Part shown: positions 3-62,699 of the stretch, piece after piece | Layout: each line of letters starts with the position of its first letter | Position numbering within the stretch: position 1 is the stretch's first letter | NCBI GenBank assembly: GCA_943788875.1 | Contig: CALSSA010000002.1 | Coordinates: 62,001 to 126,000, forward strand | Length of the DNA stretch: 64,000 nucleotides | Reading direction: 5' to 3' | From: an uncultured Pseudomonadales bacterium | GTDB lineage: Bacteria; Pseudomonadota; Gammaproteobacteria; Pseudomonadales; Porticoccaceae | Notes under the pieces: generated by a model | What the model saw: the letters and a program-made list of their open reading frames with translations, nothing else | Databases searched by the model: none | Told to the model about the DNA's origin: nothing | Position numbers and translations under genes: made by a program

Positions 3-362
3 CAGGTACGAGAACTAACAGCAGCACTAGTCGAACAGCATGGCGCTGACCGGTTAGGCTGTCATTTTCACGACACCAGAGCCATGGGTTTGGCCAATGT
101 CTTCGCCGCAGTGGAGTCGGGCATTCGCCGCTTTGACAGCTCTATTGCCGGTCTGGGAGGCTGTCCATTTGCGCCTGGTGCATCGGGAAATGTGGCAACT
201 GATGATATTGCTATGATGTTGCAGCAGATGGGGTTTGATACAGGCATAGATTTAACTAAGTTAATGCAGGCCTCTGATTTGGCTCAGGTATTAACAGGTA
301 CAGCCCCCGGAGGGCGATCCAAGCCTTGGCTTCAGGGTTATTTGACCAAGCAGGCGAGCTAG
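3..362 (+). CDS. mvaB: Hydroxymethylglutaryl-CoA lyase, C-terminal part (cut by window start)
   Basis: This enzyme cleaves 3-hydroxy-3-methylglutaryl-CoA into acetyl-CoA and acetoacetate, the last step of leucine/isovalerate breakdown. The frame is open back to base 3, well upstream of the ATG listed in the ORF track. The extra residues include CHFHDTRAMGLANV, the metal-binding His-x-His segment of the family, so the gene starts outside the window and the ATG at 84 is internal. Downstream, GLGGCPFAPGASGNVATDD is the family signature with the catalytic Cys. The C-terminus is of normal form. Known family members usually sit with leucine catabolic (liu) genes; whether that holds here cannot be seen. 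A 61-base gap separates it from hyuA. Confidence 0.93.
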   Translation, partial: QVRELTAALVEQHGADRLGCHFHDTRAMGLANVFAAVESGIRRFDSSIAGLGGCPFAPGASGNVATDDIAMMLQQMGFDTGIDLTKLMQASDLAQVLTGTAPGGRSKPWLQGYLTKQAS

Positions 363-25246: not shown

Positions 25247-25960
25247 ATGAGACAGATCGTACTAGATACAGAAACCACCGGACTGGAAACCTCCCAGGAT
25301 CATCGGATTATTGAAATTGGCTGTGTAGAAATGGTCAATCGCAAACTCACAGGTCGTCATTATCACCAGTACATTAACCCCCAGCGCAAAGTCGACGAAG
25401 GCGCCATGGAAGTGCATGGCATCACCGACCAATTTCTCGAAGATAAACCATTGTTTGACGCCATAGCACCAGACTTCTTCGAGTTTGTTGCAGGTGCAGA
25501 CCTGATTATTCACAACGCACCTTTTGACCTTGGTTTTATCAACCATGAAACCGCCAAGCTGCCCGGTAAAACTGCCGCGATTGAAAAAGGCTGCAGAATC
25601 ATCGATACCCTGGCACTGGCCCGACAGAAACACCCGGGTCAGAAAAATAACCTCGACGCCCTGTGCAAACGCTACGGCGTCGACAACTCCCAGCGTGACC
25701 TTCACGGCGCTCTGCTGGATGCCGAGATTCTTGCCGACGTCTACCTGCTAATGACGGGTGGACAGGTCAACCTCAATATCAATGATCAGTCCGCCTCAGA
25801 CTCCGGTGAGATAAATCAGGCCTCAAACATTCGTCGGCTGCCAGGCAGCCGTCCGCCCCTGCGCGTGATCACAGCCAATGACCATGAAGTTGCTCGTCAT
25901 CAGGCCAAGCTTGAATCCATTGCAGCCACTAGCGGCACCTGTGTCTGGCAGGCGGAATAA
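25247..25960 (+). CDS. dnaQ: DNA polymerase III epsilon subunit (proofreading exonuclease)
   Basis: Epsilon is the 3'-5' proofreading exonuclease of the replicative polymerase. DEDDh motifs are present: IVLDTETTGLE (Exo I), LIIHNAPFDLGFINHE (Exo II) and DLHGALLDAEILADVY (Exo III with the catalytic His and Asp). The C-terminal tail, which in E. coli carries the alpha and clamp contacts, is present to a total of 237 residues. It ends three bases before the predicted hrpA start, so the two may be co-transcribed. Confidence 0.97.
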   Translation: MRQIVLDTETTGLETSQDHRIIEIGCVEMVNRKLTGRHYHQYINPQRKVDEGAMEVHGITDQFLEDKPLFDAIAPDFFEFVAGADLIIHNAPFDLGFINHETAKLPGKTAAIEKGCRIIDTLALARQKHPGQKNNLDALCKRYGVDNSQRDLHGALLDAEILADVYLLMTGGQVNLNINDQSASDSGEINQASNIRRLPGSRPPLRVITANDHEVARHQAKLESIAATSGTCVWQAE

Positions 25961-25963
25961 TCC

Positions 25964-28900
25964 TTGTCCGAGCCATCAGAGAAACCCGAGCCCTCAGCCA
26001 ATAAAGAGCCCTCAGCGGGAAAAGAGCCCTCAGCCAAAAAAGAGCCCTCAGCGGGAAAAGAGCCCTCAGCCAAAAAAGAGCCCTCAGCGGGAAAAGAGCC
26101 CTCAGCCAATAAAGAGCCCTCAGCCAATAAAAAGCAAGCGCCACCCCGCACTGCCAATCAATTCGAGGCGCTAAAAAAGCAGCTCACAGAAACTGTTGCC
26201 AGCAGCGATCTCCATCGCCTCAGCCGACAACTGCAAGATATGCAGCGCCATGCCAAGGGCAACAACGACATCAACCAGAACTGGCAAAAATGGTTGGCGT
26301 CCAAAGACAAGTCGGAACAGCTAGTCAGCGCAAGGCGAGACAGCCTGCCACAGATTAACTACCCAGACCTGCCCGTCAGTGCCAGATCAGAAGAGATCAT
26401 CGAGCTTATCCAAAATAATCAGGTGGTGGTAATCGCTGGCGAAACAGGCTCTGGCAAAACCACCCAGCTGCCCAAGATATGCCTGCAAGCAGGTCGTGGG
26501 GTCAAAGGTATGATTGGCCACACTCAGCCCCGCCGCATAGCCGCCCGCACCGTCGCCAACCGCATCGCCGAAGAACTAAAAACGCCATTGGGCGAAACCG
26601 TCGGCTATCAGGTGCGCTTCTCTGACCAGAGCTCAGGAAATACCAGAATTAAACTGATGACCGACGGCATTTTGCTGGCCGAGATTCAGTACGACCGCTT
26701 TTTAAGCAAATATGACACATTAATTATTGATGAAGCCCACGAGCGCAGCCTCAATATTGATTTCCTAATGGGCTACCTCAAGAACCTGCTTGCCCAACGC
26801 CCAGATCTAAAACTGATTATCACCTCAGCTACCATTGATGTTGACAAGTTCTCCAATCATTTTAATGGCGCACCAGTGGTCGAAGTCTCAGGCAGAACCT
26901 ACCCAGTGGATATTATTTACGCTGGCATAGAGGATCTGGACAGCGACCGAAACCAGATGATTATCGACTGCCTGCGAGATATCGAAGCCAACCAAAAAGC
27001 TGGAGACGTACTGGTGTTTTTAAGTGGCGAGCGTGAGATTCGCGAAGCCAATCTCGCCATCAAACGAGCTCAGTTGCCTCACACCGAAATTGTGCCTCTA
27101 TACGCTAGACTCAGTCTTGCCGAGCAGAGCAAAATATTCTCCGCCCACAAAGGTCGGCGGGTAGTGCTGAGTACCAACGTCGCCGAAACCTCCTTGACGG
27201 TGCCCGGCATTGGCTATGTGATCGACACTGGTCGCGCGCGGTTATCGCGCTATAGTTTTCGCACTAAGGTACAGCGCCTACCCATAGAGCCTATATCCCA
27301 AGCCAGCGCCAACCAGCGGGCCGGGCGATGTGGCCGGGTTAGTAATGGCATTTGCTATCGACTGTACAGCGAAGAAGATTTTAACAACCGTCCTGCCTTT
27401 ACCGACCCGGAAATCGTGCGCACCAATTTAGCCGCGGTCATCTTGCAGATGCTACATCTGCGCATTGGTGATATTCGCAGCTTCCCCTTTGTTGACCCCC
27501 CAGACAACCGCATGATCAGCGACGGCTTTAAGCTGCTCGAAGAACTGCAGGCCGTCAATAGTAGTGGCAAGCTAAGTCCACTGGGTAAAAAGCTGGTTTC
27601 AGTGCCCCTCGACCCAAGATTTGCGCGCATGATTATGCAGGCAGCCCAGACTGGTTCTCTGGCCGAGGTTATGATTATTACTTCAGGGCTGAGCATTCAG
27701 GATCCCCGTGAGCGACCCGCCGACAAGCAGCAGGCAGCCGATCAGGCCCATACCCAGTGGCGCGACCCGGACTCAGACTTTATGTCGCTTTTAAACCTGT
27801 GGCGTCATTTCGAGGCCAAGCGTCAAGAGCTATCTGGCAACCAGTACAGCAAATACTGCCGTTCCAACTACGTGTCATTTCTGCGTATGAAAGAATGGCG
27901 CGACCTGCATCATCAGGTGCACAGTGCCTGTCGTGCGCTCAAGTTTAAAGAGAACCAAAAGCCCGCAGAATATGCCGCTATTCATCAGGCACTACTGTCA
28001 GGCCTACTCGGGCAGGTGGGTATTCGCGAAGACAAATGGGAATTTGCCGGCACCAGAAACCGCAAGTTTTTTATCTTCCCCGGCTCTGGTCTGAGCAAAA
28101 AGCCACCCAAATGGGTGATGGCCGGCTCATTGATGGAAACGGCTAAACAGTACGCCCTCAATGTCGCCAAAATAGACTCAGACTGGCTAGCACCGCTGGC
28201 CGCCCATCTGGTGAAAAAGACCTACAGCGCACCGTTTTACCAAATGAAATCCGGGCAGGTGATTGCCAAAGAGCGGCAGACCTTATTTGGCCTGAGTATT
28301 GTCGAAGGCAAAAATACCGTCTACGGTAATATAGCCCCAGTGGAAGCGCGGCAGATATTTATCCAACAGGCATTAGTCGAAGAGGGCTATCGCGGCAAAG
28401 GCAGCTTCTACCAGAATAATCAGCGTCTGGTCGAAGAGCTTCAGGCCCTGGAGGATCGCTTTCGTCGTCGGGATCTGCTGGCCGAGCAAAAGGTGATTTA
28501 CAGCTTCTATGACGAGCGGCTCCCAGAGGATATTTATAACCTGCCCGCCTTTGAAAAGTGGCGTAAGCAGGCCGAGCAGGGCAATGCCAAACTGCTGCAT
28601 ATCAACAAAGAGTCACTGTTGTTAAGAGGGTTATCCGCCGACGAAGAAGCTCAGTTCCCCCAATCAGTGCAATGTGATGATATGGAATTTCAACTTAGCT
28701 ACTGCTTTCAGCCCGGACACAGCGAAGATGGGGTCAGTGCCATTATCCCATTGCCCTTGTTGCATCAGCTACCGCGTTATTATTTTGACTGGCTGGTGCC
28801 TGGTATGCTGAGAGATAAATGCATCGCCCTAGTCAAGAGCTTGCCCAAGCAGACCAGACGTCACTTTGTGCCAGTGCCAGACTTTGTAGATAAAGTGTTG

Positions 28901-30055
28901 TCGCAAGTTAAAGCTCAGGATCGGCCATTAACTGAAATCCTTGGCCAACAGCTAAAACGCCACACCGGCATCAGCATCGATGAGCAGGACTGGAACGCCC
29001 AGTCCCTTGACCAATGGTACCTGATGAACTTTATCCTGCAGGACGAGGCTGGCAAAACCATCGCCATGGCCCGCAGTCTCGACCAGCTGCAGCGCGACTT
29101 TAAGCAACAGATCAGCGCTGGGTTAGAACAGGCCTCCGACAGCGGTATTGCCAGGCAGGGCATTGTTGAATGGGACTTTGATGAGCTGCCTGAAGAAGTC
29201 GCCCTACAGCGAGGAAAAATAACCATCAAAGCCTGGCCAGCATTAAAAGACTGCGGCGACTCAGTGGCCATAGAAGTAATGGACAATCCATTGACCGCGG
29301 ATAATGTCAGCCGGGCAGGGCAGCTCAGATTAGCGCTGCTCAAAGGCCGCGAGCAGCAGCGATACCTGAGCAAAAATCTACTGCGCGGCAATGATCTGGC
29401 ACTCAAAGCCGCCGCCATTGGCAGCAGGCAGGACCTTGTCGATGCATTAATCAGCGCCAGCTTTCAGGAAGCTATTTTTGCCGATAGCGGACTGGTTCGA
29501 GATCAGCATAGCTTTGACCAAAGCTATGCAGCCGGTATCGGCAATGTGGTTGGCATTGCCCAGCAGCATGCCGATAATATTCTGTCAGTGCTGCCCCAGT
29601 TACACCAGAGTCAGAAGCAGCTGCGGGCATTAGGCCTGTCCGCGGTTTATGCCAAGCCGGATATTGCCAATCAAATTGGCTGGTTATTCTCTCCAGCGAC
29701 GCTCAGGGCAATCTCCGTCAGCCATAGCAGTCAGTACCCAAGGCTGGTGCGGGGCATCATCATTCGCCTGGAAAAACTCGCCTCTCAGGTTGGCAAAGAC
29801 CGCCAGCATATTGCCGATATAGAGGCGCTGGTGCAGCCGATTAATGATATCCAGGAGCAGGCACTGTCTCGACAACCACTTTCCCAAAAGTTGACCGACG
29901 AACTGATTGACTTTCAATGGCTGATACAGGAATACCGCATATCATTGTTTGCCCAGCAACTAAAAACCCGAGTGCCGGTATCCGCCAAGCGTCTGGACAA
30001 AAAATGGCTAGAGATCAGCGACCAGCTTCGGCGGTTCTTGGTCAATAGCCATTAG
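25964..30055 (+). CDS. hrpA: ATP-dependent RNA helicase HrpA with repeat-encoded N-terminal extension
   Basis: HrpA is a DEAH-box RNA helicase linked to mRNA processing and rescue of stalled ribosomes. Walker A is AGETGSGKTTQLPK, the DEAH box is IIDEAHERSLN, and motif VI is QRAGRCGR. The HA2/OB and DUF3418 C-terminal regions are full length. E. coli HrpA is about 1300 residues and starts near the equivalent of FEALKKQLTETV. Here that point is preceded by about 65 residues made of EPSAxK repeats encoded by 18-bp units. The tracked start is TTG with no clear RBS; the first in-frame ATG (26240) would remove the repeats and part of the conserved N-terminus. The start is therefore uncertain, the gene is not. 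Confidence 0.95.
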   Translation: MSEPSEKPEPSANKEPSAGKEPSAKKEPSAGKEPSAKKEPSAGKEPSANKEPSANKKQAPPRTANQFEALKKQLTETVASSDLHRLSRQLQDMQRHAKGNNDINQNWQKWLASKDKSEQLVSARRDSLPQINYPDLPVSARSEEIIELIQNNQVVVIAGETGSGKTTQLPKICLQAGRGVKGMIGHTQPRRIAARTVANRIAEELKTPLGETVGYQVRFSDQSSGNTRIKLMTDGILLAEIQYDRFLSKYDTLIIDEAHERSLNIDFLMGYLKNLLAQRPDLKLIITSATIDVDKFSNHFNGAPVVEVSGRTYPVDIIYAGIEDLDSDRNQMIIDCLRDIEANQKAGDVLVFLSGEREIREANLAIKRAQLPHTEIVPLYARLSLAEQSKIFSAHKGRRVVLSTNVAETSLTVPGIGYVIDTGRARLSRYSFRTKVQRLPIEPISQASANQRAGRCGRVSNGICYRLYSEEDFNNRPAFTDPEIVRTNLAAVILQMLHLRIGDIRSFPFVDPPDNRMISDGFKLLEELQAVNSSGKLSPLGKKLVSVPLDPRFARMIMQAAQTGSLAEVMIITSGLSIQDPRERPADKQQAADQAHTQWRDPDSDFMSLLNLWRHFEAKRQELSGNQYSKYCRSNYVSFLRMKEWRDLHHQVHSACRALKFKENQKPAEYAAIHQALLSGLLGQVGIREDKWEFAGTRNRKFFIFPGSGLSKKPPKWVMAGSLMETAKQYALNVAKIDSDWLAPLAAHLVKKTYSAPFYQMKSGQVIAKERQTLFGLSIVEGKNTVYGNIAPVEARQIFIQQALVEEGYRGKGSFYQNNQRLVEELQALEDRFRRRDLLAEQKVIYSFYDERLPEDIYNLPAFEKWRKQAEQGNAKLLHINKESLLLRGLSADEEAQFPQSVQCDDMEFQLSYCFQPGHSEDGVSAIIPLPLLHQLPRYYFDWLVPGMLRDKCIALVKSLPKQTRRHFVPVPDFVDKVLSQVKAQDRPLTEILGQQLKRHTGISIDEQDWNAQSLDQWYLMNFILQDEAGKTIAMARSLDQLQRDFKQQISAGLEQASDSGIARQGIVEWDFDELPEEVALQRGKITIKAWPALKDCGDSVAIEVMDNPLTADNVSRAGQLRLALLKGREQQRYLSKNLLRGNDLALKAAAIGSRQDLVDALISASFQEAIFADSGLVRDQHSFDQSYAAGIGNVVGIAQQHADNILSVLPQLHQSQKQLRALGLSAVYAKPDIANQIGWLFSPATLRAISVSHSSQYPRLVRGIIIRLEKLASQVGKDRQHIADIEALVQPINDIQEQALSRQPLSQKLTDELIDFQWLIQEYRISLFAQQLKTRVPVSAKRLDKKWLEISDQLRRFLVNSH
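25988..26131 (+). repeat. Eight 18-bp in-frame tandem repeats at the hrpA 5' end
   Basis: Units of GAGCCCTCAGCCAATAAA or GAGCCCTCAGCGGGAAAA type run head-to-tail eight times and encode EPSANK, EPSAGK or EPSAKK. The AGK and AKK versions alternate, suggesting that a 36-bp pair was itself duplicated. Each unit is six codons, so gain or loss of units keeps the frame. Confidence 0.95.
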
Positions 30056-30186: not shown

Positions 30187-30552
30187 ATGTCCAAACAAAT
30201 CATTAAACCATTATCAGCAGCTGTAGGTATTGCCTTTGCAGCCACCATGGCACTGGCTCCAGCAGCCTCAGCAACAGCAAATCCTTTTCAGGCCGACCAA
30301 CTTTCATCTGGGTATAACCTTGCCGATGGCCATGCCGAAGGCAAATGCGGTGAAGGCAAATGTGGCGGTGAAAAGGCCAAAGATGAAGGCAAGTGCGGCG
30401 AAGGAAAATGCGGCGGTGACAAAGCCAAAGATGAAGGCAAATGTGGTGAAGGAAAGTGCGGTGGTGATAAAGCTGCTGGTGAAGGTAAGTGTGGCGGCGA
30501 AAAAGCTGACGATGAAGGCAAATGCGGTGAGGGTAAATGTGGCGGCGCCTAA
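30187..30552 (+). CDS. Bufferin/HvfA-type precursor peptide with nine EGKCG motifs
   Basis: This is a secreted Cys-rich precursor of the MNIO-modified RiPP class. A Sec signal peptide (MSKQIIKPLSAAVGIAFAATM...AASA) precedes the conserved leader-like NPFQADQLSSGYNLADGH. The C-terminal half has nine EGKCG units (four EGKCGEGKCG pairs plus one single) joined by G[ED]KA[KAD][DG] spacers. All nine Cys of the protein lie in EGKCG. In characterised relatives (Haemophilus HvfA, bufferins) such Cys are oxidatively modified by a DUF692 enzyme and bind copper in the periplasm. The next two genes encode that enzyme and its DUF2063 partner. RBS AAGGAGA. A copper role here is an inference from the family. 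Confidence 0.92.
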   Translation: MSKQIIKPLSAAVGIAFAATMALAPAASATANPFQADQLSSGYNLADGHAEGKCGEGKCGGEKAKDEGKCGEGKCGGDKAKDEGKCGEGKCGGDKAAGEGKCGGEKADDEGKCGEGKCGGA

Positions 30553-30579
30553 GTCGTTAGCTCACAGTTGTTAAATAAT

Positions 30580-31413
30580 ATGACCAGCAAATACCCGGTT
30601 AGTGGTGCAGGTCTAGGATTGAGGCGGGCTCTTTTGGGCCCGCTTTCTTCATTGTCCACCGAGCATGTCCAGTTTATGGAAGTGGCACCAGAAAACTGGA
30701 TTAATGTCGGTGGTCGCTACGGCAAAGCCTTTCGCGAATACACCGAAAAATTCCCCTTTGTTCTCCATGGTCTGTCCCTATCCATCGGCTCACCAGCGCC
30801 ACTGGACTGGAACCTGCTAAAGCAGATCAAAGGCTTTATGGCGGAGCACTCAATCCGCTTTTACACCGAACATCTCAGTTACTGCAGTGACCATGGTCAT
30901 CTTTACGACCTAATGCCAATACCTTTTACCCCCGAAGCCGTCGACTATGTCGCTGATCGCATCCTGCAGATTCAGGACTTTCTAGGGCAGCGTATCGCCA
31001 TGGAAAATGTCTCCTACTACGCCGCACCCCAGCAAGAGATGTCAGAGATAGAATTTACCAATGCAGTACTGGAAAAAGCCGACTGCGGCCTGCTGCTAGA
31101 CGTCAACAATATCCACGTTAACAGCATCAACCATGGTTACGACGCCGAACAATTTCTCGCCGCGCTGCCAGGCCACAGAGTGGTCTATGGTCATATCGCT
31201 GGCCATTACAACGAAGCAGAAGACCTGCGAGTCGACACCCATGGCGCCGATGTAATAGAGCCAGTTTGGGGCCTGCTGGAGTGCGCCTATCAACAGTTCG
31301 GCGTATTTCCCACATTATTAGAGCGAGACTTTAATATCCCCCCGGTAGATGAGCTGATGCTCGAAGTTGACCGCATCAAAGCCATGCAGACAGCGAAGCA
31401 GGCATATGCCTAA
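30580..31413 (+). CDS. DUF692 multinuclear non-heme iron oxidase (MNIO; BufB/HvfB-like)
   Basis: A TIM-barrel enzyme of the DUF692/MNIO family, which uses two or three iron ions to modify Cys residues of a partner peptide. Family blocks with His/Glu/Asp/Asn ligands are present: [64 protein letters not shown] and [11 protein letters not shown] choose ATG 30580 (277 residues) over the tracked TTG 30568. It starts 27 bases after the precursor gene and overlaps the DUF2063 gene by 8 bases, so the three form an operon. Chemistry on this precursor is inferred from HvfB and bufferin systems. Confidence 0.95.
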
Positions 31414-32185
31414 AAGCAGGCCATCGTTCCAGCAGACTCAGGGCGCCTTTGCCGCCCATATCCGTCATCCACAGCTGCATCAGGCCCCAGAGCATATTGA
31501 AGATCGCCGCCTGGAAATCTACCGCAACCTGTTCTTCAACAATATCGAATCCTTTTTAGCCTCAGGTTTCCCCATCCTTAAATCGCTAATGGTTGGAAAT
31601 AAGGGGGGTGAGGAAAACTGGACCAACATGGTGCGCGACTTTATCCACAGGCACCAGAGCCACAGCCCCTATTTCTTGCAAATCAGCGAAGAATTCCTCG
31701 CCTACCTGCAGCAAGAATATCAGCCCAGGCCCAATGATCCAGGGTTTATGCTAGAGCTAGCCCATTATGAATGGGTCGAATTGGCACTCGATGTATCGAC
31801 TGCAGAAATTCCCACAGATATCCAGCAGCAGGGCAATGTACTGGACGACCATCCCATCCCGTCTCCCACCGCCTGGCGATTTATTTATCAGTACCCAGTG
31901 CATCGCATTGGCTCCGAGTTCCAGCCTCAAGAGCCCGGGCCTGAAGTCACGGCATTAATTGTTTATCGCAGCACAGCGCTGCAGATAGGTTTTATGGAGT
32001 CCAACCCCGTCACCCTGCGTCTACTGGAAATACTTGAAAGCGAGCAGATCAGTGGCAGAGCCGCTATAATTAAATTAGCCACAGAGATTGAGCACCCAGA
32101 GCCCGGTAAGCTATTTGAATTTGGCACAGACCTGCTGTTGGAACTTAAAAACCAAGAGATTATCTGCGGCTTTCGCCGCATTTGA
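31406..32185 (+). CDS. DUF2063 family partner protein (BufC/HvfC-like)
   Basis: DUF2063 proteins bind the precursor leader and deliver it to the MNIO enzyme. The N-terminal domain [15 protein letters not shown]...[28 protein letters not shown] is the family core. [16 protein letters not shown] and [17 protein letters not shown] follow, and a second domain makes up the rest. ATG 31406 overlaps the end of the MNIO gene, whereas the tracked 31367 start adds 13 non-conserved residues; this gives 259 residues. Known operons often continue with a DoxX-like membrane protein; here none follows and the next gene is mlaA. Confidence 0.93.
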
Positions 32186-58961: not shown

Positions 58962-61900
58962 ATGTACTCATCAGTAACAGCCAATGCTGGCAGATCCGTC
59001 AGTATGGGCATCAAAAAGCACCTCGGCGTGATTTCTGCGTTGATATTTTCCTTAGTTTTGTCTGCCTGTGGCGGCGGTGGCGGTGGCGGCGATAACCCTG
59101 GCCCTGCAGTGTCAGGAGCGCCAACGCTTTCAGAGGTTAGCATTTCTTCAGGTGAACTCACCACAGTGACCGTGGGAGACAAGGTGACAGTCACAATCTC
59201 TGCTAGCGAGGCGATTCTTGCGCCGTCAGTGATGATTGGTGGTGTTGCTGTTGATCGCGTCGTGGGTTCTGAGAAAAACTGGACCGCTGATCGCGTAATG
59301 CTCGAAACTGATACTGCCGGTGTGCTTTCTCTAAGCGTCTCATTTAGCGATGTTGGCGGTGAGGCGGGTACGACTGTTACTGATACTACTGACGGTTCGG
59401 CAATTACCCTTGAAATCAACAATGAGGGGGGTGCGGTTGTTGATGGCCCGTTTCAGGCTGCTACAGTTTATGCCGACTACAATGGCAACGGAGTTCACGA
59501 TGAAGGTGAGCCCTCAGACCTGACCGATGCCAATGGCGAATATGATCTGGTTAAGACTACTGATGCTCCTGCAGCCTACAACATTGTTGTTGAGATGACT
59601 GCTGATACTATCGATTCAATCTCTGGTGAGAGCTATGCTGATTCAACGCTGAAGTTGAAGGCGCCCAGTGGTGGTGACGTTGTAACCCCCTTGACTACTG
59701 TTCTGGTCGCAGCACAAGCCGCCGATCCTACCTTTACTGCTGAAGACCTTGCCGTTGCAATGGGCTTGCCTGCAGGAATAGATATTGAGACTTACAACCC
59801 GTTTGCGAGCGGCGTGACCGCCAGCGAAGCCCATGCTGTAGAAAAGGTCTTCCAGCAGGTTATGACGGCGACGCTTATTGTATCTGAGGCTATGGAAGGT
59901 GTTGCTGGTATCACTGGCGCTACCCTTTCTGGGGAAGATGCCAGTGCTGCGGCTCTGCTGGCTGTAACCAACATGATAACGGAATCTACTGTCACGGTAG
60001 ACTTTTCTGAGTCTGATCAGATCGCCGAACTCCAGGAAGCAGCCAAAGACGAATTGCTGGCTCAGGGAATTGTTGATGAGGCATCTGCAGATATCGCTGA
60101 CTATGTACTGGCTAGTGCTGCGGACACCGTAACTCAGCTTTCGGTCGCTATTCAGGCTGTGGCTCTATCTGACTTTGGTGAAGCGGCTTCGTCTTCTGTT
60201 TCGCTGCTCAAGCATGACGCTGCAAGTCAGATGGCAGCGCTGGCAACTGCGGCGGCAGATTTCCTAGAAGCTGGATCCACTGATCTTACTCAGTTGGATA
60301 TCTCTGAAATTCTGACCCTCGCTAGCGCTGATGGTGTTGCTGCGATGGTTGAGGAAAACCAGTCAGAGGTTGAGGCTTATTTGTCAACTCTTGGTGGAAC
60401 AGTATTATCTTGGGGCCTTTTTGGAGGCGTCGAGATCGCTGATGGTGGAGTGTTTAATCACCCGGCTTCTGCTGAATCCTGGGGCGGATTCTACAGCGAG
60501 ACTGATATTTTCCCGCTTGCATTCTCCGTGGGCGGTACTGTCACATTTAATGCTGCGCTTCAGGCCGGTAGTGATCCTGTTAGCCTGGTGTTCCAGTTTG
60601 AAGAAGTCGGAGGTGGAAACGCGTCCTACAACTTCCAGACTGAAGGGGTAGTAGTAGATAGCGAAACCGAGGCGACCTATACCGCCCCGATTCCTGCTCA
60701 GGAGGCCAGCTTAACTTATGAGAGTCTAGTTTTGTTTATCAGTGGGCTAGATTCACCAGTGCAGATCTGTAATGTGCAGGTTTCTACTGGTGATACTGTG
60801 GTTGAAGGTATCCCTTGTGATAGCACTAGCGGCGACTCAGGTACTGGCGACGACTCAGGTACTGGCGACGACTCAGGTACTGGCGACGACTCAGGTACTG
60901 GCGACGACTCAGGTACTGGTGACGACTCGGGTACTGGTGACGCCGATGTTCTTACGCTTACGGTAGTAGCACCAGACGCAACAGCTGTAAGACTAACCGG
61001 GCCATGGTGGAGTTGGGCGTCTGATGGAGGCCCAGCGGCTACCGACAACGCGGATGGTACTTGGACTGTTGTATTCGAGGAAATTCCTACAGAAACTATG
61101 GAATATAAGTGGGTGCTTGATGGTGCTCAGGAAGATCTAGTTGCACCGGCCGCTGCTGGAGAATGTACGGCGCTTGTTGATGCTGGACGCGTAAATACTG
61201 ATTACTCTAGTTGGGGTAACAGATATTGGGTTCTAGACTCAGGCCTTAATTTCACTGACTACGCAGGTGCCTGTGCTCCGACAGAGCTGAGGCTCACTGT
61301 TTCAGCACCTGACGCAACAGCGGTAAGGATGACTGGTCCCTGGTGGTCTTGGGCTGCTGATGGTGGTCCGGAAGCTACTGACAATGAAGACGGTACTTGG
61401 ACGGTAACGATTGATCCGATTCCTACAGAGACAATGGAATATAAGTGGGTCATTGATGGCGAACAAGAAGATCTGGTAACACCGGCAGCGGCTGGAGAAT
61501 GTGGTGATCTCATTGACGCTGGGCGCATAGATACTGATTACTCTGGTTGGGGTAACCGATACTGGATTCTTGATTCGGGCGGCTACTTTCTGGAATATGC
61601 AGGAGCCTGTGCTGAGCCTCCTGAGCCTGCTGATCCCACGCCGACTGTTTTGACGTTTAATGTGTCAGCTCCAGATGCGACAGCGGTAAGGATGACTGGT
61701 CCCTGGTGGTCTTGGGCTGCTGATGGTGGTCCGGAAGCTACTGACAATGAAGACGGTACTTGGACGGTAACGATCGATCCGATTCCTACAGAGACAATGG
61801 AATATAAGTGGGTCATTGATGGCGAACAAGAAGATCTGGTAACACCGGCAGCGGCTGGAGAATGTGGTGATCTCATTGACGCTGGGCGCATAGATACTGA

Positions 61901-62699
61901 TTACTCTGGTTGGGGTAACAGATACTGGGTACTGGATTCGGGTTATAGCTTCACCGATTATGCGGGAGCCTGTGCTGAGCCTGCTGATCCCACGCCGACT
62001 GTTTTGACGTTTAATGTGTCAGCTCCAGATGCGACAGCCGTAAGGATGACTGGTCCCTGGTGGTCTTGGGCTGCTGATGGTGGTCCGGAAGCTACTGACA
62101 ATGAAGACGGTACTTGGACGGTAACGATTGATCCGATTCCTACAGAGACAATGGAATATAAGTGGGTCATTGATGGCGAACAAGAAGATCTGGTAACACC
62201 GGCAGCGGCTGGAGAATGTGGTGATCTCATTGACGCTGGGCGCATAGATACTGATTACTCTGGTTGGGGTAACAGATACTGGGTACTGGATTCGGGTTAT
62301 AGCTTCACTGATTATGCGGGAGCCTGTGCTGAGCCTGCTGATCCCACGCCGACTGTTTTGACGTTTAATGTGTCAGCTCCAGATGCGACAGCGGTAAGGA
62401 TGACTGGTCCCTGGTGGTCTTGGGCTGCTGATGGTGGTCCGGAAGCTACTGACAATGAAGACGGTACTTGGACGGTAACGATTGATCCGATTCCTACAGA
62501 GACAATGGAATATAAGTGGGTCATTGATGGTGAACAAGAAGATCTGGTAACACCGGCAGCGGCTGGAGAATGTGGTGATCTCATTGACGCTGGGCGCATA
62601 GATACTGATTACTCTGGTTGGGGTAACAGATACTGGGTACTGGATTCGGGTTATAGCTTCACTGATTATGCGGGAGCCTGTGCTGACACTGCCCCCTAG
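58962..62699 (+). CDS. Surface lipoprotein with five tandem carbohydrate-binding-like modules
   Basis: A 1245-residue lipoprotein: signal peptide ending SLVLSAC, then a GGGGGGG tether that often accompanies surface export. Next come an Ig-like domain (residues 50-140) and a segment with a Ca-loop-like DYNGNGVHDEGEPSDL. A helical region of about 300 residues and a beta domain (GGTVTFNAALQAGSDPVSLVFQF) follow, then a GDDSGT linker. Five repeats of about 115 residues form the C-terminus, each with VRMTGPWWSWAADGG, DNEDGTWTVT and MEYKWVIDG, a pattern like CBM48/CBM20 starch-binding modules, plus two Cys. GGGGGAG lies close to the ATG; ATG 59004 is an alternative start. The next gene is a TonB receptor, so a glycan-binding role is likely. 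The polysaccharide is not identifiable. Confidence 0.85.
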   Translation: MYSSVTANAGRSVSMGIKKHLGVISALIFSLVLSACGGGGGGGDNPGPAVSGAPTLSEVSISSGELTTVTVGDKVTVTISASEAILAPSVMIGGVAVDRVVGSEKNWTADRVMLETDTAGVLSLSVSFSDVGGEAGTTVTDTTDGSAITLEINNEGGAVVDGPFQAATVYADYNGNGVHDEGEPSDLTDANGEYDLVKTTDAPAAYNIVVEMTADTIDSISGESYADSTLKLKAPSGGDVVTPLTTVLVAAQAADPTFTAEDLAVAMGLPAGIDIETYNPFASGVTASEAHAVEKVFQQVMTATLIVSEAMEGVAGITGATLSGEDASAAALLAVTNMITESTVTVDFSESDQIAELQEAAKDELLAQGIVDEASADIADYVLASAADTVTQLSVAIQAVALSDFGEAASSSVSLLKHDAASQMAALATAAADFLEAGSTDLTQLDISEILTLASADGVAAMVEENQSEVEAYLSTLGGTVLSWGLFGGVEIADGGVFNHPASAESWGGFYSETDIFPLAFSVGGTVTFNAALQAGSDPVSLVFQFEEVGGGNASYNFQTEGVVVDSETEATYTAPIPAQEASLTYESLVLFISGLDSPVQICNVQVSTGDTVVEGIPCDSTSGDSGTGDDSGTGDDSGTGDDSGTGDDSGTGDDSGTGDADVLTLTVVAPDATAVRLTGPWWSWASDGGPAATDNADGTWTVVFEEIPTETMEYKWVLDGAQEDLVAPAAAGECTALVDAGRVNTDYSSWGNRYWVLDSGLNFTDYAGACAPTELRLTVSAPDATAVRMTGPWWSWAADGGPEATDNEDGTWTVTIDPIPTETMEYKWVIDGEQEDLVTPAAAGECGDLIDAGRIDTDYSGWGNRYWILDSGGYFLEYAGACAEPPEPADPTPTVLTFNVSAPDATAVRMTGPWWSWAADGGPEATDNEDGTWTVTIDPIPTETMEYKWVIDGEQEDLVTPAAAGECGDLIDAGRIDTDYSGWGNRYWVLDSGYSFTDYAGACAEPADPTPTVLTFNVSAPDATAVRMTGPWWSWAADGGPEATDNEDGTWTVTIDPIPTETMEYKWVIDGEQEDLVTPAAAGECGDLIDAGRIDTDYSGWGNRYWVLDSGYSFTDYAGACAEPADPTPTVLTFNVSAPDATAVRMTGPWWSWAADGGPEATDNEDGTWTVTIDPIPTETMEYKWVIDGEQEDLVTPAAAGECGDLIDAGRIDTDYSGWGNRYWVLDSGYSFTDYAGACADTAP
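60831..60935 (+). repeat. 18-bp tandem repeats coding the GDDSGT linker
   Basis: A 15-base GGCGACTCAGGTACT unit is followed by four identical GGCGACGACTCAGGTACT units and a fifth with two changes. It codes an acidic flexible linker between the core and the binding modules. In frame, so copy number can vary. Confidence 0.95.
60951..62687 (+). repeat. Five tandem carbohydrate-binding-like modules (period 354 bp in the last three)
   Basis: Module starts are about 60951, 61287, 61650, 62004 and 62358. Modules 2 to 5 are nearly identical over most of their length and differ mainly at silent sites such as GCGGTA/GCCGTA and GATCGAT/GATTGAT. Module 1 is clearly diverged. The linker after module 2 has an extra PEP, making that period 363. 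Confidence 0.95.

Follow-up and report, generated by a model that had tools for sequence, protein, structure and literature searches.

The start of hrpA in this genome raises the question of why eight 18-bp repeat units stand inside the coding sequence of a conserved RNA helicase, and whether they belong to the protein or to the DNA. The locus lies in a window, the whole stretch of DNA that was analysed, of 64,000 nucleotides and has the following features:

25247..25960, + strand: dnaQ-like exonuclease gene, with its stop codon 27 bases before the array.
25964..30055, + strand: hrpA, ATP-dependent RNA helicase with a TTG start and a repeat-encoded N-terminal extension (from the ORF list, ortholog starts and profile matches).
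25970..25987, + strand: degenerate 18-mer GAGCCATCAGAGAAACCC directly before the array (from comparison with the sister species).
25988..26131, + strand: array of eight 18-bp units, each GAGCCCTCAGC plus a 7-bp spacer, encoding (EPSAxK)8 (from repeat finding and core search).
25988..25998, + strand: first of eight exact GAGCCCTCAGC cores; the others start at 26006, 26024, 26042, 26060, 26078, 26096 and 26114.

The hrpA open reading frame encodes 1363 amino acids and begins 3 bases past the dnaQ stop codon. It scored 1671 bits against the NCBIfam equivalog model TIGR01967 (cut-off 722.75) and 1469 against a second equivalog model, NF008348 (cut-off 1400), and contains the DEAH helicase, OB and DUF3418 domains of Pfam. 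By these scores and domains the ORF is a genuine HrpA. The TIGR01967 match starts at residue 75, past the repeats. An earlier note on this DNA had described eight in-frame units extending a conserved helicase, and this observation is confirmed. The note had called the added segment a tail; it is an extension, but it sits at the N-terminus. Whether the TTG start is used had also been queried. Congeneric hrpA orthologs have a TTG or ATG start in the corresponding position behind dnaQ, which favours translation of the repeats. No alternative in-frame start lies ahead of the conserved region; the next is an ATG 66 codons before the GETGSGKT motif, within the conserved N-terminal region. Together, these features of the sequence make it likely that the extension is translated from the TTG codon. 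A RiPP metallophore cassette lies just downstream of hrpA, at 30187-32185. It consists of an HvfA-type precursor built on KCGExKCG repeats and with 48-bp repeats of its own, an MNIO maturase of the HvfB/bufferin type, and what is probably a partner protein.

Tandem Repeats Finder placed the 18-bp array at 25988-26135 (8.2 copies, score 205) and found a better-fitting 36-bp higher-order repeat at 25988-26124 with a 98% match. The spacers are CAATAAA, GGGAAAA or CAAAAAA, and the units read, in order, EPSANK, EPSAGK, EPSAKK, EPSAGK, EPSAKK, EPSAGK, EPSANK and EPSANK. Because of the 36-bp duplications, AGK and AKK alternate; the stepwise duplication proposed in the earlier note thus holds, and its point that a six-codon period allows in-frame expansion was right. 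The array terminates with a full unit and not exactly at the core, a point in which about half of arrays differ. All eight exact copies of GAGCCCTCAGC in the window belong to this array, and with one mismatch allowed the window has 10 matches (1.56 expected), a number reached in none of 100 shuffles. The array folds worse than shuffles as both DNA and RNA (z +2.2 to +2.6), which rules out secondary structure as the reason for it; one intergenic f41-type array in another genome folded better than shuffles as RNA (z -2.2). The only match to a known RNA family was sub-threshold and lay beside the array. Elsewhere in the window, at 60825-62686, 6.6 copies of an 18-bp TGDDSG-type repeat precede about 4-5 copies of a 354-bp repeat that match at 87-96%, which points to a large repetitive protein, perhaps secreted or at the surface.

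When the HrpA protein was used as a genome-wide query, many secondary matches were confined to residues 1-75 and fell in unrelated genes of its own and related genomes. A DNA search of its own genome with the repeat located six further places. The repeat unit is an 11-bp core, GAGCCYTCAGC, with a spacer variable in sequence and length; spacings within arrays are mostly 17-30 bp. The source genome has 33 exact cores, 32 of them inside five arrays (in hrpA, rhlB, dnaX and an mltC-like gene, and at one intergenic site), and isolated cores occur at chance level. The repeat had been regarded as a feature of HrpA, a view that does not survive now that the same DNA is known from many unrelated genes, where other frames and the opposite strand are also used, and from intergenic sites. 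In rhlB (L043, 3951-4122), a single unit of 17 bp causes a frameshift, so that EPSAxK repeats give way to KSPQRI repeats and the C-terminus is rewritten. Another site in the same genome (L048, C8:176608) has a divergent array whose variant core, AAGCCCTTAGC, lies in an open frame and yields KPLADK repeats; this array may be an old member of the family that is decaying. With C at position Y, the core GAGCCCTCAGC, as at 25988-25998, contains CCTCAGC, the asymmetric BbvCI site; the frequent T at Y argues against a simple restriction link.

Genome surveys used the pattern exact core-N(3..25)-core, or N(3..20) in the first search. Core pairs were present in 16 of 35 congeneric genomes (17 of the 56 relatives searched), in 52 of 392 genomes of the order, covering 32 of 142 genera, and in 7 of 369 genomes of the class, the source genome included. 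Across the phylum, 8 of 399 sampled genomes had pairs of the Y-version core; all 8 were Gammaproteobacteria, and the sample yielded none outside that class. The reversed-pattern control had zero matches in every survey (relatives, order, class and phylum). Some genomes are very rich; two from one family, for example, hold 67 and 60 core pairs. The repeat is thus dispersed over many genomes, and the family appears, on these sequence surveys, to have spread across marine gammaproteobacteria. Many arrays stand at contig ends of draft genomes (L209, L212, L213, L223, L224, L227, L228 and L239), so array numbers are underestimated, with assemblies breaking at arrays. Carriage by phages or plasmids was considered and rejected, as blastn of the array had no match in phage and plasmid collections; a single two-core match among 2.9 million viral contigs (L172) is too little to build on.

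These surveys bear on the simplest account of the locus, in which ordinary local slippage built the array at hrpA and its likeness to other loci is coincidence or contamination. The native hrpA leader held a sequence resembling one unit, and slippage clearly operates in the array, as its 36-bp higher-order repeat attests. Nevertheless, arrays of the same exact 11-mer are found in dozens of genera and the control pattern has no match, which refutes this account and leaves it hardly credible.

The arrays are independent of reading frame and strand. Classified with gene calls that near arrays are mechanical ORFs, 37 are in the sense frame encoding EPSA, 24 are antisense (AEGS), 12 are in the sense SPQ frame and 28 are intergenic. 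Spacings are a multiple of 3 in 353 of 360 genic cases vs 33 of 136 intergenic ones, revealing an in-frame filter within genes. The predominance of the EPSA and AEGS frames indicates that protein composition matters to the survival of arrays. Host genes include rhlB, dnaX, an mltC-like transglycosylase, transketolase, ribD, RNase Z, a copper-type P-ATPase, phoH and ftsY, with fimV, a PEP-CTERM-type ATPase and others in relatives. In transketolase, RibD, RNase Z and the P-type ATPase the repeat stands inside a recognisable conserved protein in each case. The dnaX arrays of two families (L045 and L159) have opposite orientations, which argues for independent insertions.

Could EPSAxK nevertheless be a useful disordered linker or binding peptide that has arisen repeatedly under selection on the protein? 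Among the 76 genic arrays, the EPSA sense frame is the most frequent, with 37, and insertions occur at termini, linkers (e.g. DnaX tau) and loops. HrpA itself is reported to act on, or rescue, stalled or collided ribosomes in Escherichia coli (cited in PMC13159725), and an RNA- or ribosome-contacting tail is imaginable. The earlier note had likewise suggested that the extension binds RNA or ribosomes. That proposal found no support: the extension is missing from the nearest ortholog, which is 92% identical, and from every other ortholog read, and nothing in the analysis links it to ribosome rescue. In other genes this DNA yields KSPQR or AEGS, and it also occurs between genes.

Codon usage also speaks against a peptide under selection. 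Eighty EPSA units were collected through protein similarity with codons disregarded. Glu is GAG in 78 of 80 (background 0.47), Ser is TCA in 77 of 80 (background 0.16) and Pro is CCC or CCT in 74 of 80. The third base of the Ala codon, the first outside the core, is free (GCG 32, GCT 25, GCC 12, GCA 11). A degenerate-codon search of the 56 relatives returned almost only GAG-CCY-TCA-GC. With core codons nearly fixed next to a free wobble base, it is the DNA that is conserved, not the peptide. These data largely refute selection on the protein, which we consider very improbable, and with it the binding-peptide reading. Other comparisons point the same way: the core carries 1.3-1.9 bits per position and the spacer mostly less than 0.5, neighbouring units differ at 3.7% of core vs 18.1% of spacer positions (the spacer five times more often), and the degree of core conservation is the same whether arrays are sense EPSA, sense SPQ, antisense AEGS or intergenic, although absolute core conservation is inflated in all three comparisons because most arrays were gathered via two exact cores. 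The 80-unit codon count and the degenerate-codon search are not inflated in that way. Most likely, then, the extension of HrpA is a by-product that is translated and tolerated, not a conserved binding domain; it is probably a flexible charged segment.

Conservation of the DNA could also mean that a cellular protein or RNA (a regulator, nucleoid protein, nuclease or small RNA) binds or cleaves at the core and that the arrays are functional clusters of sites. The sharp boundaries of the core fit this explanation, as do isolated cores at chance level, which would mean that only clusters matter. So does the placement of the intergenic arrays. All 20 with both neighbours read lie downstream of a same-strand gene, 13 between convergent ORFs and 7 in sense orientation within tandem gene pairs, with none antisense or between divergent genes; most are -19 to +50 bases from the stop codon. 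The dnaQ stop codon, 27 bases before the hrpA array, is the usual setting of these intergenic members. However, array locations vary between species, the host genes share no function, about half of the congeneric genomes have no exact-core arrays, and arrays are often within coding sequence on either strand. A functional site cluster thus seems unlikely, if clearly less so than selection on the protein. Intergenic arrays are often flush with the upstream stop codon (L212, L223, L229, L225 and L219): TGA shares GA with the core, TAG shares G, or TAA stands just before the core.

Comparison between species, with one genome per species, shows the hrpA site without the array. The sister species, whose HrpA is 92% identical, carries TTGTCAGAGCCATTAGCTAAACAAGAGCAAGTG at the site; in the window, the same leader is followed by a related degenerate 18-mer and the eight units. 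In place of GAGCCATCAGAGAAACCC the sister has a single 18-mer, GAGCCATTAGCTAAACAA, with 9 of 11 core positions matched, and from this alignment GAGCCATCAGAGAAACCC is probably an ancestral seed or an old remnant unit. In genomes related to the transketolase case, too, the loop concerned holds single core-like copies. Such copies, in the hrpA sister and the transketolase relatives, are either seeds that attracted an array or remnants of contracted ones.

By inspection, the flanks of about 97 arrays showed no terminal inverted repeats or target-site duplication, unlike those of an insertion sequence or MITE, and neither was seen in the empty-site alignments of hrpA and transketolase. The flank consensus of these arrays is only an A at -1. 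Derivation of the spacer from local flanking DNA is not supported: of 80 arrays, 41 have a downstream flank that departs from the last spacer immediately, and 55 have one that does so within 2 bases; the hrpA array, ending with a full unit, is exceptional in this test. No transposase, reverse transcriptase or trans-acting enzyme was found for the arrays. We therefore infer array mobility from distribution only.

At roughly 70% probability, the hrpA array is a member of a dispersed, sequence-constrained minisatellite family of Gammaproteobacteria, (GAGCCYTCAGC-spacer)n, founded by copying and filtered by tolerance. A new array would be founded where a short core-like sequence lets the DNA of an existing array be copied in, by template switching or recombination over roughly 8-11 bp or by an enzyme that recognises the core. 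Slippage or unequal exchange would then lengthen or shorten it. Selection would retain copies that the protein tolerates, at termini, linkers and surface loops and in multiples of 3 bp, or those sitting harmlessly after a stop codon. The array looks like selfish or machinery-recognised DNA rather than an adaptation of the helicase. It is a tentative further step, one we think has the odds against it, to see a new class of mobile repeat, in which a trans-acting enzyme or core-specific repair seeds chance near-core sites and multiplies arrays, generating disordered protein segments in a frame-tolerant manner throughout Gammaproteobacteria.

Among known systems, the family is closest to Rickettsia palindromic elements and TAACTGA arrays, and it is none of the systems compared here. 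The Rickettsia elements (Ogata 2000, 2002) are described in review as palindromic single insertions of about 150 bp, confined in that account to Rickettsia and in frame in many unrelated, often essential, protein genes, where they are tolerated as added peptide and proposed to be selfish (PMC10969869). The GAGCCYTCAGC arrays are similarly in frame in unrelated protein genes and absent from orthologs. In contrast, their core is by inspection not self-complementary, shuffles fold better than the window array, most units measure 17-30 bp, and the family, a gammaproteobacterial one, forms tandem arrays that use several frames and both strands. TAACTGA direct repeats occur in Beggiatoaceae, Cyanobacteria and Bacteroidetes; they are mostly intergenic, in the BOGUAY genome close to where the downstream gene has its start codon, and in forward orientation place stop codons in all three frames, with some overlapping the stop codons of upstream genes or sitting inside ORFs (PMC4679880). 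Shared features are a fixed short word, dispersed sets of direct repeats far above chance, patchy taxa and a mechanism that is not known. The word here is GAGCCYTCAGC, however, with a longer core and variable spacers; most arrays lie within ORFs, and the intergenic ones come after gene ends. The PARCEL motif, 25 protein residues long and dyad-symmetric at the DNA level, occurs mostly in membrane-targeted ORFs and is thought to have spread by gene transfer and intragenomic shuffling (PMC2996958). It resembles the present family in its tandem coding repeats and punctate taxonomic distribution, but the GAGCCYTCAGC unit is DNA-constrained, frame-independent and found in housekeeping genes. Tandem units, higher-order repeats and in-frame length change are shared with ordinary coding VNTRs or minisatellites, which are locus-specific, whereas the same core recurs here at unrelated loci and in unrelated genera. 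A literature search on the core sequence returned, among the matches listed, only vertebrate or fungal primer or gene contexts, and within its scope, outside the subscription literature, no paper was found that describes GAGCCYTCAGC as a repeat.

If the dispersed-family reading is right, low-complexity tails and linkers on many housekeeping proteins of these bacteria are footprints of a spreading DNA word and not adaptations, and they should therefore not be over-interpreted. Such arrays could also supply raw material for disordered protein regions, and the family offers a testable case of short tandem DNA jumping between genes without an obvious transposon. At one locus (L241, 1466-4669), three adjacent ORFs each have an SPQ-frame array at a similar position, which suggests that these arrays were duplicated together with the gene.
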